Made by a program: the position numbers and the translations under genes. A stretch of DNA of 37,672 nucleotides from Candidatus Staskawiczbacteria bacterium (GTDB lineage: Bacteria; Patescibacteriota; Minisyncoccia; Minisyncoccales; Staskawiczbacteraceae). Where the stretch lies: assembly GCA_023245195.1 (NCBI GenBank), contig JAHFKU010000005.1, positions 1-37,672 on the forward strand, written 5' to 3'. Each line of letters opens with the position of its first letter. The first letter of the stretch is position 1. The notes beneath the pieces were generated by a model that worked only from the letters and a program-made list of their open reading frames with translations, had not been told where the DNA came from and ran no database searches. Positions 1-37,672 of the stretch are shown here, piece by piece.

Positions 1-53
1 TCAAAGTAAATATAAATCTTATGAAAAATCCATTTTCAAATCAGTCAGGCGTT

Positions 54-88
54 AAAAGTCAAATGTTAAATGTCAAAGGTCAAATGTC
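54..88 (+). repeat. Heptanucleotide array at the pilin start
   Basis: Five tandem 7-nt words fit AAA-N-GT-Y: AAAAGTC, AAATGTT, AAATGTC, AAAGGTC, AAATGTC. The last word contains the ATG at 84, which is the probable start of the pilin gene. The same vocabulary recurs downstream of efp at 34316-34346. Confidence 0.85.
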
Positions 89-536
89 ACGAGCAGGTTT
101 TACTCTTCTAGAAATTCTACTCGTCGTTGCCGCTATCGCTATTTTAGCGGGCATTGTCATTTTGGCCATTAATCCGAGCAAACAATTAGGAGATACTCGA
201 AACGCCCAGCGCAAGGCCGATGTCAATACTATTTTAAATGCTATTTATCAATATACGATTGATAATAATGGAACTTTGCCAACGATTCCTACGGGTTCTT
301 GTGCCCTTGTTGCAGCTAATCAAGTTTGCAAAGCCGCCGCAACTGGGACTTGTTCTACCGGGGTTGCGCTTACGGTGTTGACCGCCAGTGAAAAATATTT
401 AACCAGTTTGCCGATTGATCCTACGGTTTCATCAACTGATGGTACCGGATATTATATTTCAAAAAGTGCCAACGGCCGAGTAACTCTTTGCGCCCCAAGT
501 GCCGAACAAGGTGCAACGATCAGTGTAACCAGATAA
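84..536 (+). CDS. Type IV pilin-like / pseudopilin protein
   Basis: A 150-aa protein with a class III (prepilin) signal. After MSRAG comes the FTLLEILLVVAAIAILAGIV helix, so a PilD-type peptidase would cut between G5 and F6, and the conserved Glu is at mature position +5. The hydrophobic N-terminal helix is followed by a short globular part with four Cys residues that could form disulfides. An in-frame ATG at 21 would add 21 residues, but that stretch is mostly a heptanucleotide array (54-88), so I prefer the ATG at 84. The family forms or nucleates pili or type II-like pseudopili on the outer face of the cytoplasmic membrane. Which subunit this is cannot be told. It lies upstream of the sensor kinase gene with a repeat element in between. 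Confidence 0.8.
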   Translation: MSRAGFTLLEILLVVAAIAILAGIVILAINPSKQLGDTRNAQRKADVNTILNAIYQYTIDNNGTLPTIPTGSCALVAANQVCKAAATGTCSTGVALTVLTASEKYLTSLPIDPTVSSTDGTGYYISKSANGRVTLCAPSAEQGATISVTR

Positions 537-15382: not shown

Positions 15383-15513
15383 AAAAATTTCTAATTTCTA
15401 ATTTTAAATTTCTATTAAATGTTTAATTACCGAATTTCTAAACTGTAAACGGTTTAAAAATTTAGCTGCTGAAAATTTAATAGAAATTAGGAATTGAAAA
15501 TTAAAAATTAGTA
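15383..15513. repeat. Inverted heptanucleotide array pair between mraZ and rsmH
   Basis: Left words TTTCTAA, TTTCTAA, TTTTAAA, TTTCTAT; right words TAGAAAT, TAGGAAT, TGAAAAT, TAAAAAT, TAG, ending a few bases before the rsmH ATG. The blocks are approximate reverse complements. Confidence 0.8.
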
Positions 15514-16859: not shown

Positions 16860-16861
16860 TC

Positions 16862-16933
16862 ACATAACACATAACATAGAACACATAACAATACGACGTC
16901 GTTTTGTTTCATGTTTCATGTTTCATGTTCCAT
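16862..16933. repeat. Inverted heptanucleotide array pair at the ftsI start
   Basis: Left words ACATAAC, ACATAAC, ATAGAAC, ACATAAC (16862-16889); right words GTTTCAT three times then GTTCCAT (16906-16933). The spacer holds the palindrome ACGACGTCGT. The probable ftsI start codon lies inside the right block. Confidence 0.87.
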
Positions 16934-18637
16934 GAAGTGAAGGGCTGGAGGCCAAACATACTTATATCCGGGTTTTTTATCTTAGCAGCAATTATTATTG
17001 GCTGCTTGTTTTATGTACAGGTTTTACAACACAAATTTTACCAAGCAAAGGCTTTGGGCCAGCAATCAGGATTTTCTGAAGTTTTTGGATCGCGCGGCGA
17101 AGTTTTTTTAAAAAATAGCAAAGAATATCAGAATCAAGAAGTAAAAAGTTTGGCCATTAATAAAGATAAGTGGCTCGTTTCGGCCGTGCCAAGCAACATT
17201 GAAGATAAAACTAGTGTTGCCGCAACTTTGGCCCCAATGATAAGCCTTTCAAAAGAATTTATTGTAAATAAACTGGAAAGCTCTGATTCCTACGTGATTA
17301 TTAAAAAAGATGTATCTAGCCAGGAATTAAAAAATATTAAAGATTTTGATCAAGAAGGTCTTGCCTTGGAAAATATACCCAGCCGTTATTATCCCCAAGG
17401 CGCCATGCTTTCACAGGTTATCGGATTTTTTGGGGGAAACAATACCGGCCAGTATGGAATCGAAGGTTATTACGACGACATTTTAAAAGGCAAATCTGGC
17501 ATCAAAGAAGAAAAAAGGGGATTGAACGTGATTAATTCCAAGGCGCCTGTAGATTTAAACGGATCAGACCTTTATTTAACCATAGATTATAATATCCAAT
17601 TCCAGGCAGAAGATTTATTAAAAGAGGCCCGAAAAAAGATTGATATAGATTCTGGCCAAATTATCGTGCTGGCTCCGGATTCGGGCAAGATTCTGGCCCT
17701 CGCTAATTTCCCGTCATTTGATGTTAATAAATACTCAAAAGAACATGATTTAGAAATTTTCCAAAATTCAGCCATTCAAAAATTGTTTGAACCGGGCTCG
17801 GTTTTTAAGCCCTTTACTATGGCCATGGCCTTGCAAGAAGGCAGGGTCACCAAAGATAGCACCTTTGTTGATACAGGAAGTGTAACGATTGGCCCCGACA
17901 CCATCAGTAATTTTAACCACGAAGTCTATGGCAAGCGCGATATGTCGGGCATTTTAGAAAAGTCTATTAATACGGGAGCGGTTTTTTTGTCGCAATTAAT
18001 TTCTCATCAAACATTTTCAAATTACCTGGACACGTTCGGCTTTAGCGATAAAACGGGGGTAGATTTACAGGGAGAAGTGTATTCTGAAAATACTATTTTA
18101 AAAAACGGTTCGGATTTTGGTTTTGCAACGGCTTCTTTCGGCCAAGGTATTGAAATGACGCCTATTCAGCTCGCCCGCTCGTTTTCGATATTTGCCAATG
18201 GCGGTAAAATGGTAAAACCTTATATTGTTGATAAAATTAGCCATGGCCAGGATGAACAAAAAACAAAACCTCAAATTTCAGATCAGTTAATTTCCTCTAA
18301 AACCGCTTCTGATGTTACGACCATGTTAATTAATGTGGTAGAACGTGGGTTTGGCGACGGGGCGAAAATCCCGGGTTATTACCTGGCGGGCAAAACCGGG
18401 ACGGCGCAAGTTCCTTTTGAAAATAAAAAAGGGTATTATCCTGATAAAACCATTCAAAGTTTTATCGGTTTTGGGCCGGCACTAAAACCTCAATTTTTAA
18501 TATTGGTAAAATTGGATAATCCGAAAGTCCCCAAAAGTTCTTTGTCGGCTGTTCCCATTTTTAAAAAATTAGCTCAATATATTATAAACTATTGGCAAAT
18601 TCCTCCGGATTATGACGTTGTTTCAGGCGCTAAATAA
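16925..18637 (+). CDS. ftsI: Class B penicillin-binding protein (FtsI/PBP2-type transpeptidase)
   Basis: About 570 aa. One N-terminal TM helix (NILISGFFILAAIIIGCLFYVQV), a PBP dimerisation domain with SRYYPQGAMLSQVIGFFG, and a transpeptidase domain with all three motifs: S292-VFK in EPGSVFKPFT, S347-IN, and K490-TG in KTGTAQVP. It cross-links septal peptidoglycan outside the membrane with FtsW. The start is uncertain: a TTG at 16904 and the ATG at 16925 lie in the heptanucleotide block, and a GTG at 16937 would start right after it. The C-terminus ends at a bidirectional terminator. Confidence 0.92.
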   Translation: MFHEVKGWRPNILISGFFILAAIIIGCLFYVQVLQHKFYQAKALGQQSGFSEVFGSRGEVFLKNSKEYQNQEVKSLAINKDKWLVSAVPSNIEDKTSVAATLAPMISLSKEFIVNKLESSDSYVIIKKDVSSQELKNIKDFDQEGLALENIPSRYYPQGAMLSQVIGFFGGNNTGQYGIEGYYDDILKGKSGIKEEKRGLNVINSKAPVDLNGSDLYLTIDYNIQFQAEDLLKEARKKIDIDSGQIIVLAPDSGKILALANFPSFDVNKYSKEHDLEIFQNSAIQKLFEPGSVFKPFTMAMALQEGRVTKDSTFVDTGSVTIGPDTISNFNHEVYGKRDMSGILEKSINTGAVFLSQLISHQTFSNYLDTFGFSDKTGVDLQGEVYSENTILKNGSDFGFATASFGQGIEMTPIQLARSFSIFANGGKMVKPYIVDKISHGQDEQKTKPQISDQLISSKTASDVTTMLINVVERGFGDGAKIPGYYLAGKTGTAQVPFENKKGYYPDKTIQSFIGFGPALKPQFLILVKLDNPKVPKSSLSAVPIFKKLAQYIINYWQIPPDYDVVSGAK

Positions 18638-31169: not shown

Positions 31170-31562
31170 ATGTCAGACGATAAACAAGAAAAAGAAGTTA
31201 AAAATCCTAATATGAATTCGGGAGAAGTTTTTGCTGGCCAAGAAAAAGTTCTCGACGAAACAGAATTTAATGAATCGAAAGAAGGCGGGGAGTCAATCAG
31301 CCCGGAAGCTGTAAAAGAAATAAAAGCCCAAATAGAATCTGCCGATCTATCCGACACATTAAAAATGCAATCCCAATCCCAGGCCGGTGATTTGCAATCG
31401 CTTGAAACTAAAGAAAAACTGCAAAAATTACTCCAAACGGCCAAGGCAAAAGGAGTGGTGTTTGCGGTTCATGTGGCTAAAAACATGAACGATCCTTATA
31501 TGTTGGATATGCTGCACGATGCGCTGGCGCGCGAAGGATACTATAAAAATTTTCTTAAATAG
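31170..31562 (+). CDS. Small acidic soluble protein upstream of the TraG-like ATPase
   Basis: A 130-aa protein. The first 85 residues are acidic and probably disordered (DDKQEKEVKNPNMNSGEVF, ETEFNESKEGGESISPE). The C-terminal 45 are compact and look conserved (LQKLLQTAKAKGVVFAVHVAKNMNDPYMLDMLHDALAREG). The architecture would suit an adaptor or partner of the ATPase downstream, but no family is recognised. The ATG at 31170 is preferred over an upstream in-frame start at 31122, which overlaps the preceding gene. Confidence 0.68.
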   Translation: MSDDKQEKEVKNPNMNSGEVFAGQEKVLDETEFNESKEGGESISPEAVKEIKAQIESADLSDTLKMQSQSQAGDLQSLETKEKLQKLLQTAKAKGVVFAVHVAKNMNDPYMLDMLHDALAREGYYKNFLK

Positions 31563-31694
31563 AAAATTTAAATTTTAAATTATCAATTTTTAATTTTTAT
31601 TAAATTTTCAATAAGGTGAATTTTTAAACACGTTTAAAAATTAAAACATTTGGTTATTATTTAGAAATTTAAAATTAGAAATTAGAAATTTTCG
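31563..31694. repeat. Inverted heptanucleotide array pair upstream of the TraG-like gene
   Basis: Left block of AAATTTAAATTTTAAATT type, centre AATTTTTAAAC-AC-GTTTAAAAATT (11-bp arms), right block AATTAGA, AATTAGA, AATTTTC ending next to the ATG at 31698. Confidence 0.78.
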
Positions 31695-34915: not shown

Positions 34916-34976
34916 GTGTAACTAGTAACTGGTAACTAAGTAACTGGTAATTACGAGTTACAAGTTACGAGTTACA
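34916..34976. repeat. Inverted heptanucleotide array pair between efp and the PolX-type gene
   Basis: On the plus strand GTAACTA, GTAACTG, GTAACTAA, GTAACTG, GTAATTA, then ACGAGTT, ACAAGTT, ACGAGTT, AC. GTAACT and AGTTAC are reverse complements. The array fills the whole gap; read on the minus strand it ends 4 nt before the efp ATG. Confidence 0.88.
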
Positions 34977-37014: not shown

Positions 37015-37672
37015 ATGAAAATTCATTTTATCGGTATTGGGGGAATAGGGGTGTCTTCGTTGGCACAGTACTATTTGCAAAAAGGGTATGAGATTTCAGG
37101 CTCTGATTTAGCATCTTCAGAAATCACTGATTTTTTAAAAAACAAAGGCGTAGAAATTTTTATTGGAAATAATCCTGAAAATATTAAAGAGGGGATTGAC
37201 CTGGTAATTTATAGCCCGGCGGTCAAGGCAGATAATCCGGAACTGCTAAAAGCTAAAAGCTATAAGCTAAAAGCCATTACGTACCCCGAGGCGTTGGGTG
37301 AGCTTACGCGCCAATATACGACGATAGCCGTTTCTGGGAGCCACGGAAAAAGCACTACAACAGCGCTGATAGCCTTGGTTTTGATAAAAGCGGGAATTGA
37401 CCCAACGGTTATTGTGGGTACTAAATTGAAGGAATTTGGGAATAGTAACTTTCGGTTTGGCAAATCAAAATATTTGGTGATTGAAGCCTGTGAATACGAT
37501 GATTCGTTTAATAATTATTTCCCCAAAATTACGGTCGTTACCAATGTTGATAAAGAACATTTAGATTATTTTAAAACCTTTGCCAATGTGGTAAAAACGT
37601 TTAAGGAATTTATTTTTAAGTTGCCGAAAGAAGGGTTTTTGGTGGCTAATAAAGACGATAAAAATTTGGTAA
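37015..37672 (+). CDS. murC: UDP-N-acetylmuramate-L-alanine ligase, N-terminal part (cut by window end)
   Basis: The first 219 codons. MKIHFIGIGGIGVSSLAQYYL is the Rossmann-like N-terminal domain, ATP site GSHGKSTTTALIAL (G108-K112), then EACEYDDSFNNYFPKITVVTNVDKEHLDYF. MurC adds L-Ala to UDP-MurNAc in the cytoplasm. Codons around 78-87 consist of four heptanucleotides (CTAAAAG type) read as LLKAKSYKLKA; the length of the segment is normal, so existing sequence was replaced rather than extended. It lies apart from the mraZ-ftsI cluster and may be controlled by the ArsR-like regulator. Confidence 0.95.
   Translation, partial: MKIHFIGIGGIGVSSLAQYYLQKGYEISGSDLASSEITDFLKNKGVEIFIGNNPENIKEGIDLVIYSPAVKADNPELLKAKSYKLKAITYPEALGELTRQYTTIAVSGSHGKSTTTALIALVLIKAGIDPTVIVGTKLKEFGNSNFRFGKSKYLVIEACEYDDSFNNYFPKITVVTNVDKEHLDYFKTFANVVKTFKEFIFKLPKEGFLVANKDDKNLV
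37246..37273 (+). repeat. Heptanucleotide array inside murC
   Basis: CTAAAAG, CTAAAAG, CTATAAG, CTAAAAG in exact 7-nt register within coding sequence. Confidence 0.83.

Follow-up and report, generated by a model that had tools for sequence, protein, structure and literature searches.

Selection is expected to remove from essential genes any tandem repeat with a unit length not divisible by three. Dispersed tandem arrays of 7-nt units are reportedly found as the STRR heptanucleotides of Cyanobacteria, and the phase-variable heptanucleotide tracts of neuO and HMW1A are said to alter expression through changes in copy number. The array described here lies in murC, an essential cell-wall gene, has 4.3 copies and occupies a site of conserved length between species. 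Rickettsia palindromic elements are selfish-looking palindromic repeats of ~100 nt, which insert in frame into conserved proteins, at positions that tolerate them, and add sequence there. By contrast, the murC array is a direct repeat of 30 nt with no inverted partner and a net length change of zero, and hence does not qualify as a palindromic, protein-lengthening insert. According to Mrazek 2007, as presented in PMC4679880, most bacteria rich in repeats have more heptanucleotide repeats than any other class of long simple repeat, 7-nt polymerase slippage or contact has been proposed to account for them, and coding regions are the likeliest place for units divisible by three. Tandem 7-nt units exceed chance in the genome studied here, as they do in some of the bacterial genomes covered by that account (Mrazek 2007 via PMC4679880). 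What differs from the heptanucleotide LSSRs as presented there is that many arrays are found inside conserved core genes and that orthologous sites hold their length while the word changes. The TAACTGA direct repeats of Beggiatoaceae, Cyanobacteria and Bacteroidetes are likewise short heptamer arrays (2–6 copies), mostly intergenic with some in ORFs, but in that family one word dominates and the ORF copies are mostly at protein ends (PMC4679880). Here, the words number in the dozens, arrays occupy internal positions of MurC, MurD, enolase, LepA, UvrB and TyrS, and the word turns over between species. The murC array, whose word is CTAAAAG, falls outside the TAACTGA family and within the heptanucleotide LSSR/STRR class, defined by a tandem 7-nt unit in at least three copies. 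Heptanucleotide repeats are thus already known, and what appears to be new is the turnover of words at fixed length inside core genes. The literature searched here yielded no description of heptamer arrays in Patescibacteria.

The window analyzed here is a stretch of 37,672 nt from Candidatus Staskawiczbacteria bacterium (contig JAHFKU010000005.1, forward strand), and the contig ends inside murC. The remaining part of the gene (37015..37671, + strand) comprises the N-terminal 219 codons of UDP-N-acetylmuramate--L-alanine ligase and matches MurC proteins in the PDB. Its top NCBIfam model is TIGR01082 murC (1.3e-80), under the whole-protein cut-off because the ORF is truncated. The heptanucleotide array covers positions 37245–37274 (+ strand; TRF: period 7, 4.3 copies, 91% matches) and consists, in order, of the units GCTAAAA, GCTAAAA, GCTATAA, GCTAAAA and GC. 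In the lag profile its self-identity is 21/23 at lag 7, 15/16 at lag 14 and 9/9 at lag 21, with other lags not close. Read in the ORF frame from 37015, the array extends from the last base of Leu77 through Ala87, encodes LKAKSYKLK within this interval and is followed by ITYPEALGEL. The initial annotation had described four CTAAAAG words in exact 7-nt register. The register is confirmed, but only three of the four words are exact, the remaining one carrying an A-to-T change. This base, T37263, is the sole departure from a perfect array and forms the third position of the Tyr83 codon (37261..37263, + strand), which reads TAT where the perfect word would read the stop codon TAA. In an unbroken (CTAAAAG)n, each forward frame meets a TAA every 21 nt, so that such an array could not be translated. 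Stop-containing perfect words underlie 15 of the 49 coding arrays of three Staskawiczbacteria genomes, and each is interrupted at the stop. The stop-breaking base in murC shows a coding constraint on the array, which for arrays inside ORFs is partly forced.

The array is held by a length-conserved unit, the segment from NPE to LGEL (residues 74–97; 37234..37305, + strand). Of 110 homologues, 98 have this segment at 24 residues, and its alignment with solved MurC chains (phmmer, PDB) needed no gaps, in agreement with the earlier claim that its length is normal. The AlphaFold2 model (mean pLDDT 93.5) has a helix at residues 75–82, a turn at 83–85, a strand at 86–89 and another helix at 90–100. 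This model places the array within regular secondary structure of the first domain and not in a floppy loop.

When codons of the murC peptide were resampled synonymously, the observed period-7 score was reached with P ~9e-5, and with gene-specific codons it was reached in 0 of 4000 resamplings; both nulls take codons as independent, and the site had been picked for its striking look. The window as a whole contains 10 exact period-7 runs (at least 9 self-matches) against 0.3 expected, and genome-wide there are 28 coding period-7 arrays versus 3–4 after synonymous shuffling, with a background of ~12% at that threshold. An explanation by amino acid selection and codon bias, in which a Lys/Ala-rich helix end looks periodic by accident, draws on the fact that KAKSYK[IL]K is tolerated at the same site in two relatives, L027 and L028, the latter (genome G019) having KAKSYKIK without any heptamer pattern. 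The initial annotation had named, as evidence against its own reading, conservation of the same codons for the needs of the protein in distant homologues without the pattern. Half of that was found, since the residues evidently suit the site, but they leave the choice of codons unexplained. The codon null largely refutes the accidental origin of the periodicity, which also sits badly with the genome-wide counts and with the recurrence of an identical 21-mer in unrelated proteins, and we consider it very improbable. An assembly or sequencing artefact would be hardly credible: the genome is a draft of 41 contigs and the array is close to a contig end, but the murC frame is intact, period 7 is enriched across this and other genomes, and separately assembled records also show arrays at the murC site.

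The source genome (G000; 787 kb, GC 39%, 41 contigs) contains ~119 period-7 arrays, while neighboring periods mostly have 0–4, apart from period 9 with 22 and the harmonic 14 with 55. This population has the statistical excess typical of heptanucleotide LSSRs/STRRs, over neighboring periods as well as over shuffles. The words are AT-rich (22% GC), and a self-complementary tetramer is slightly commoner in them than in letter-shuffled words (0.71 vs 0.60). By mechanical ORF calls, 38 of the 119 arrays are in ORFs and 81 outside, the murC array itself being within a core gene. Besides those already named, array-bearing genes include, by family assignment, CCA tRNA nucleotidyltransferase and UvrC, next to LepA, UvrB and TyrS. 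Another array of the window falls within the leader at the N terminus of a pilin-like ORF (VKSQMLNVKGQMS; 51..89, + strand), and no Rfam families other than one tRNA were found in the window. Three Staskawiczbacteria genomes were compared in full, and their array loads differ strongly: 119 in G000, 146 in G012 and 11 in G005, which is a complete genome. Going by this within-genus contrast, the array-making process may still be active, as the initial annotation had proposed from the murC array.

The murC word is not confined to murC. Its 21-mer recurs in the source genome in the MurD part and in the N-terminal part of one fused ORF and in enolase, and a further variant is found in an ORF of contig C8, making four other coding sites; outside coding sites, the 21-mer pattern gave no matches of the CTAAAAG type in this genome. 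In a scan of 147 genomes of the order, none of the three congeners covered had the word and few of the other genomes did, with essentially no matches for the reversed control. A word that is private to a few genomes, yet shared among sites of one of them, suggests that arrays may exchange sequence with each other. The fused ORF (C16:21172-23869, − strand; ~898 aa) joins a MurD ligase to a long N-terminal part and holds two CTAAAAG arrays along with a SRLRQGYGGQAK repeat peptide. It is kept in many relatives as open frames of ~770–990 aa, as judged with a query that is inexact in a few residues before the conserved NTIIGITG, outside the region of interest here, which is unaffected. The C8 ORF (C8:42478-43684, + strand; ~400 aa) has four different heptamer arrays, and its orthologues in G012 (C9:22393) and even in array-poor G005 (C1:123759) carry arrays at several of the same sites, made of other words. 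Local templating of the murC array, as proposed by the initial annotation, receives a weak signal from the seeding of words by pre-existing sequence nearby (mean 6.3 vs 5.7, P ~0.01), but the word is also present at four other coding sites, and a template elsewhere in the genome is just as possible.

The comparison that the initial annotation had suggested, of murC in close relatives, answered the question it had raised: relatives lack the array or, as a rule, have one made of another word. The congener G005 has EYAAAKKMGIKTQSYP with no period at the site, and the congener G012 has a degenerate array in a segment of 24 residues (synonymous P 0.0025). In other species, the word is CTAAAAG in L027 (24 residues, net 0) and, among other Parcubacteria, AAATTAG in L265 (23 residues, −1), CTACAAG in L247 (29 residues, +5) and ATATCCA in L258 (33 residues, +9), and L253 and L248 have degenerate GTTxxAA-type repeats (29 residues, +5). 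A second loop region of murC contains a heptamer array in L247 (AAATTTG/AAATTTT, ..MGGFAKFEILNLKFEILIIEACEH) and other inserts in L258 and L240. Since the change in the murC of the source genome is length-neutral, it is not a simple expansion in 7-nt steps. The proposal of replacement instead of expansion is accordingly upheld at this locus by an array at unchanged length next to array-less or degenerate relatives, but length-neutrality is not general, given the −1, +5 and +9 at the same site. "Replacement" fits the murC locus, which is one end of a spectrum. In some net-0 pairs, namely murC of G000 and G012 and UvrB, orthologous identity is no lower than flank identity, so that these pairs do not show wholesale exchange of the word.

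The spread of net lengths among lineages (−1, 0, +5, +9) would also suit the insertion of ready-made arrays with loss of the original piece, in which selection retains net changes divisible by three, murC is a chance net zero and words are not rewritten afterwards. So would the observations that arrays are usually ~30 nt and yet net gains span 0 to +21 residues, and that the murC word is present at four other coding sites of the source genome and rare elsewhere. What such insertions with loss do not predict is that orthologous sites share a length while differing in word, and we regard them as a realistic possibility, if the less expected one.

Evidence on this last point comes from the 49 internal coding arrays of the three genomes. 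Where an array was compared with an array-less orthologue (54 comparisons), the protein was longer in 38, equal in 8 and shorter in 8; most arrays go with a longer protein, and roughly one in seven leaves its length unchanged. Where both orthologues carry an array, the net indel is zero in 8 of 16 pairs, against the 8 of 54 for pairs with and without array (Fisher P 0.006; P 0.004 after hand correction for one duplicate and one misclassified pair). The words usually differ in such pairs, although length is kept more often. In several of them the lag-7 self-similarity of the arrays is higher than the identity between the orthologues, as in enolase (0.85/0.73 vs 0.58) and the C8 ORF (0.72/0.69 vs 0.53). 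The most pronounced case is enolase, in which seven species have seven words and a loop of 16 residues in all seven, versus 11 in all array-less congeners with a complete gene. The carriers are scattered over the enolase tree, and thus the pattern may reflect either inheritance with turnover of the word or repeated gain at equal length. The same loop holds inverted-repeat inserts in G016 (L228), G027 (L230) and G049 (L233), suggesting that it is a site tolerant of several repeat families. Other length-neutral cases are LepA of the source genome, identified by family search, and the G012 ORF C11_88222, which we take, from its motifs, to resemble PolX.

To stay in frame, 7-nt slippage in a gene would have to alter the protein by multiples of 7 residues, but net indels range from 0 to +21 residues with no peak at 7, 14 or 21, and pure in-frame slippage is therefore not enough by itself. 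With a net gain or loss of 7 or 14 nt the reading frame is lost, so that simple slippage covers intergenic arrays and not the length-neutral ones in an essential gene. In our preferred explanation, DNA synthesis in which strands misalign or the template is switched in 7-nt steps would produce short heptanucleotide arrays throughout the genome, and protein genes would retain only products with an intact frame, no stops and a sequence compatible with the fold. In murC, the retained product would have overwritten ~30 nt of the helix-turn-strand segment with a net length change of zero. An array established in a gene may later have its word replaced at constant length when strands switch out of register, either inside that array or between it and a second one. 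We give this combination of misalignment or template-switch origin, selection and later word replacement at kept length about an even chance of being correct; the mechanism of misalignment or template switching, its ongoing activity and the source of the word are the parts of it that we infer.

Heptamer arrays are also found in larger intergenic structures. In the source genome, 47 pairs of arrays lie within 200 nt of each other, 26 of them with inverted words, and the arrays of inverted pairs are outside ORFs in 50 cases and inside in 2. The intergenic inverted pairs of the window are AATTTCT / TAGAAAT arrays around a 69-nt spacer (15386..15510), a pair with a 65-nt spacer (31557..31690) and GTAACTA.. 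/ TTACGAG.. (34918..34975). Pairs of the form AATTTCTAATTTCTA / TAGAAATTAGAAATT, with spacers of ~20–70 nt, include the first two of these and ~10 more in the source genome. There are also two families of dispersed elements. The first, of ~80 nt, consists of a CACATAA-array, AAAAAACGTCCGTCGTAG and a CATGTTT-array directly upstream of ORFs, the right array giving the start codon and an MFHVSCFM-type leader. The copy in the window (16861..16934, + strand) has two heptamer arrays around ATACGACGTCGTTT, and the ORF at 16904 (MFHVSCFMFH..) takes its start from the right one; other copies in the source genome are at C38:4024-4104, C32:103895-103975, C1:5515-5595 and C28:1906-1986. The second family, of ~170 nt, has terminal inverted heptamer arrays (AATTTGAAATTTGAAATTTAC.. 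/ ..AAATTTCAAATT) a CGACGTCG-like core and a GC-rich hairpin that may lie to one side or the other, with copies in that genome at C35:5635-5808, C36:10173-10339, C22:2888-3053, C32:61468-61629, C38:1396-1561 and others. The cores of both families are CGACGTCG-like, and near-full matches in the source genome number 9 for the 80-nt family and 11 for the 170-nt family (some counted in both orientations). The 170-nt element is found in G012, and has no matches in array-poor G005.

Such elements could in principle have supplied the murC array as a solo arm that remained from an inverted pair around a core or was recombined out of one. The abundance of pairs and inverted pairs, their strong bias to positions outside ORFs, the repeated composite elements with CGACGTCG-like cores and the lack of the 170-nt element in array-poor G005 all fit this origin. 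However, no inverted partner array is present in the murC neighborhood, where only isolated single words were found, and, given that the source genome has no non-coding match of the CTAAAAG type, the source element is missing. A solo arm is therefore an improbable explanation.

Less likely than not is a broader proposal, in which some Parcubacteria would have a length-conserving process with a 7-nt step that rewrites array words in essential genes, by strand switching inside an array or copying from another one. Orthologous protein segments would then change by concerted word replacement and not by point mutation, and the intergenic inverted pairs would be products of this process or its mobile source.

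Heptamer arrays recur here in many essential genes, in folded parts and not only in disordered tails, and they seem to change identity at constant length. The contrast between 119 and 146 arrays in two members of a genus and 11 in a third makes the cause searchable by comparative genomics. If our reading is true, alignments and phylogenies built on array-bearing genes would be biased, and a mutational process would supply whole blocks of new residues to the conserved proteins of these small-genome bacteria.
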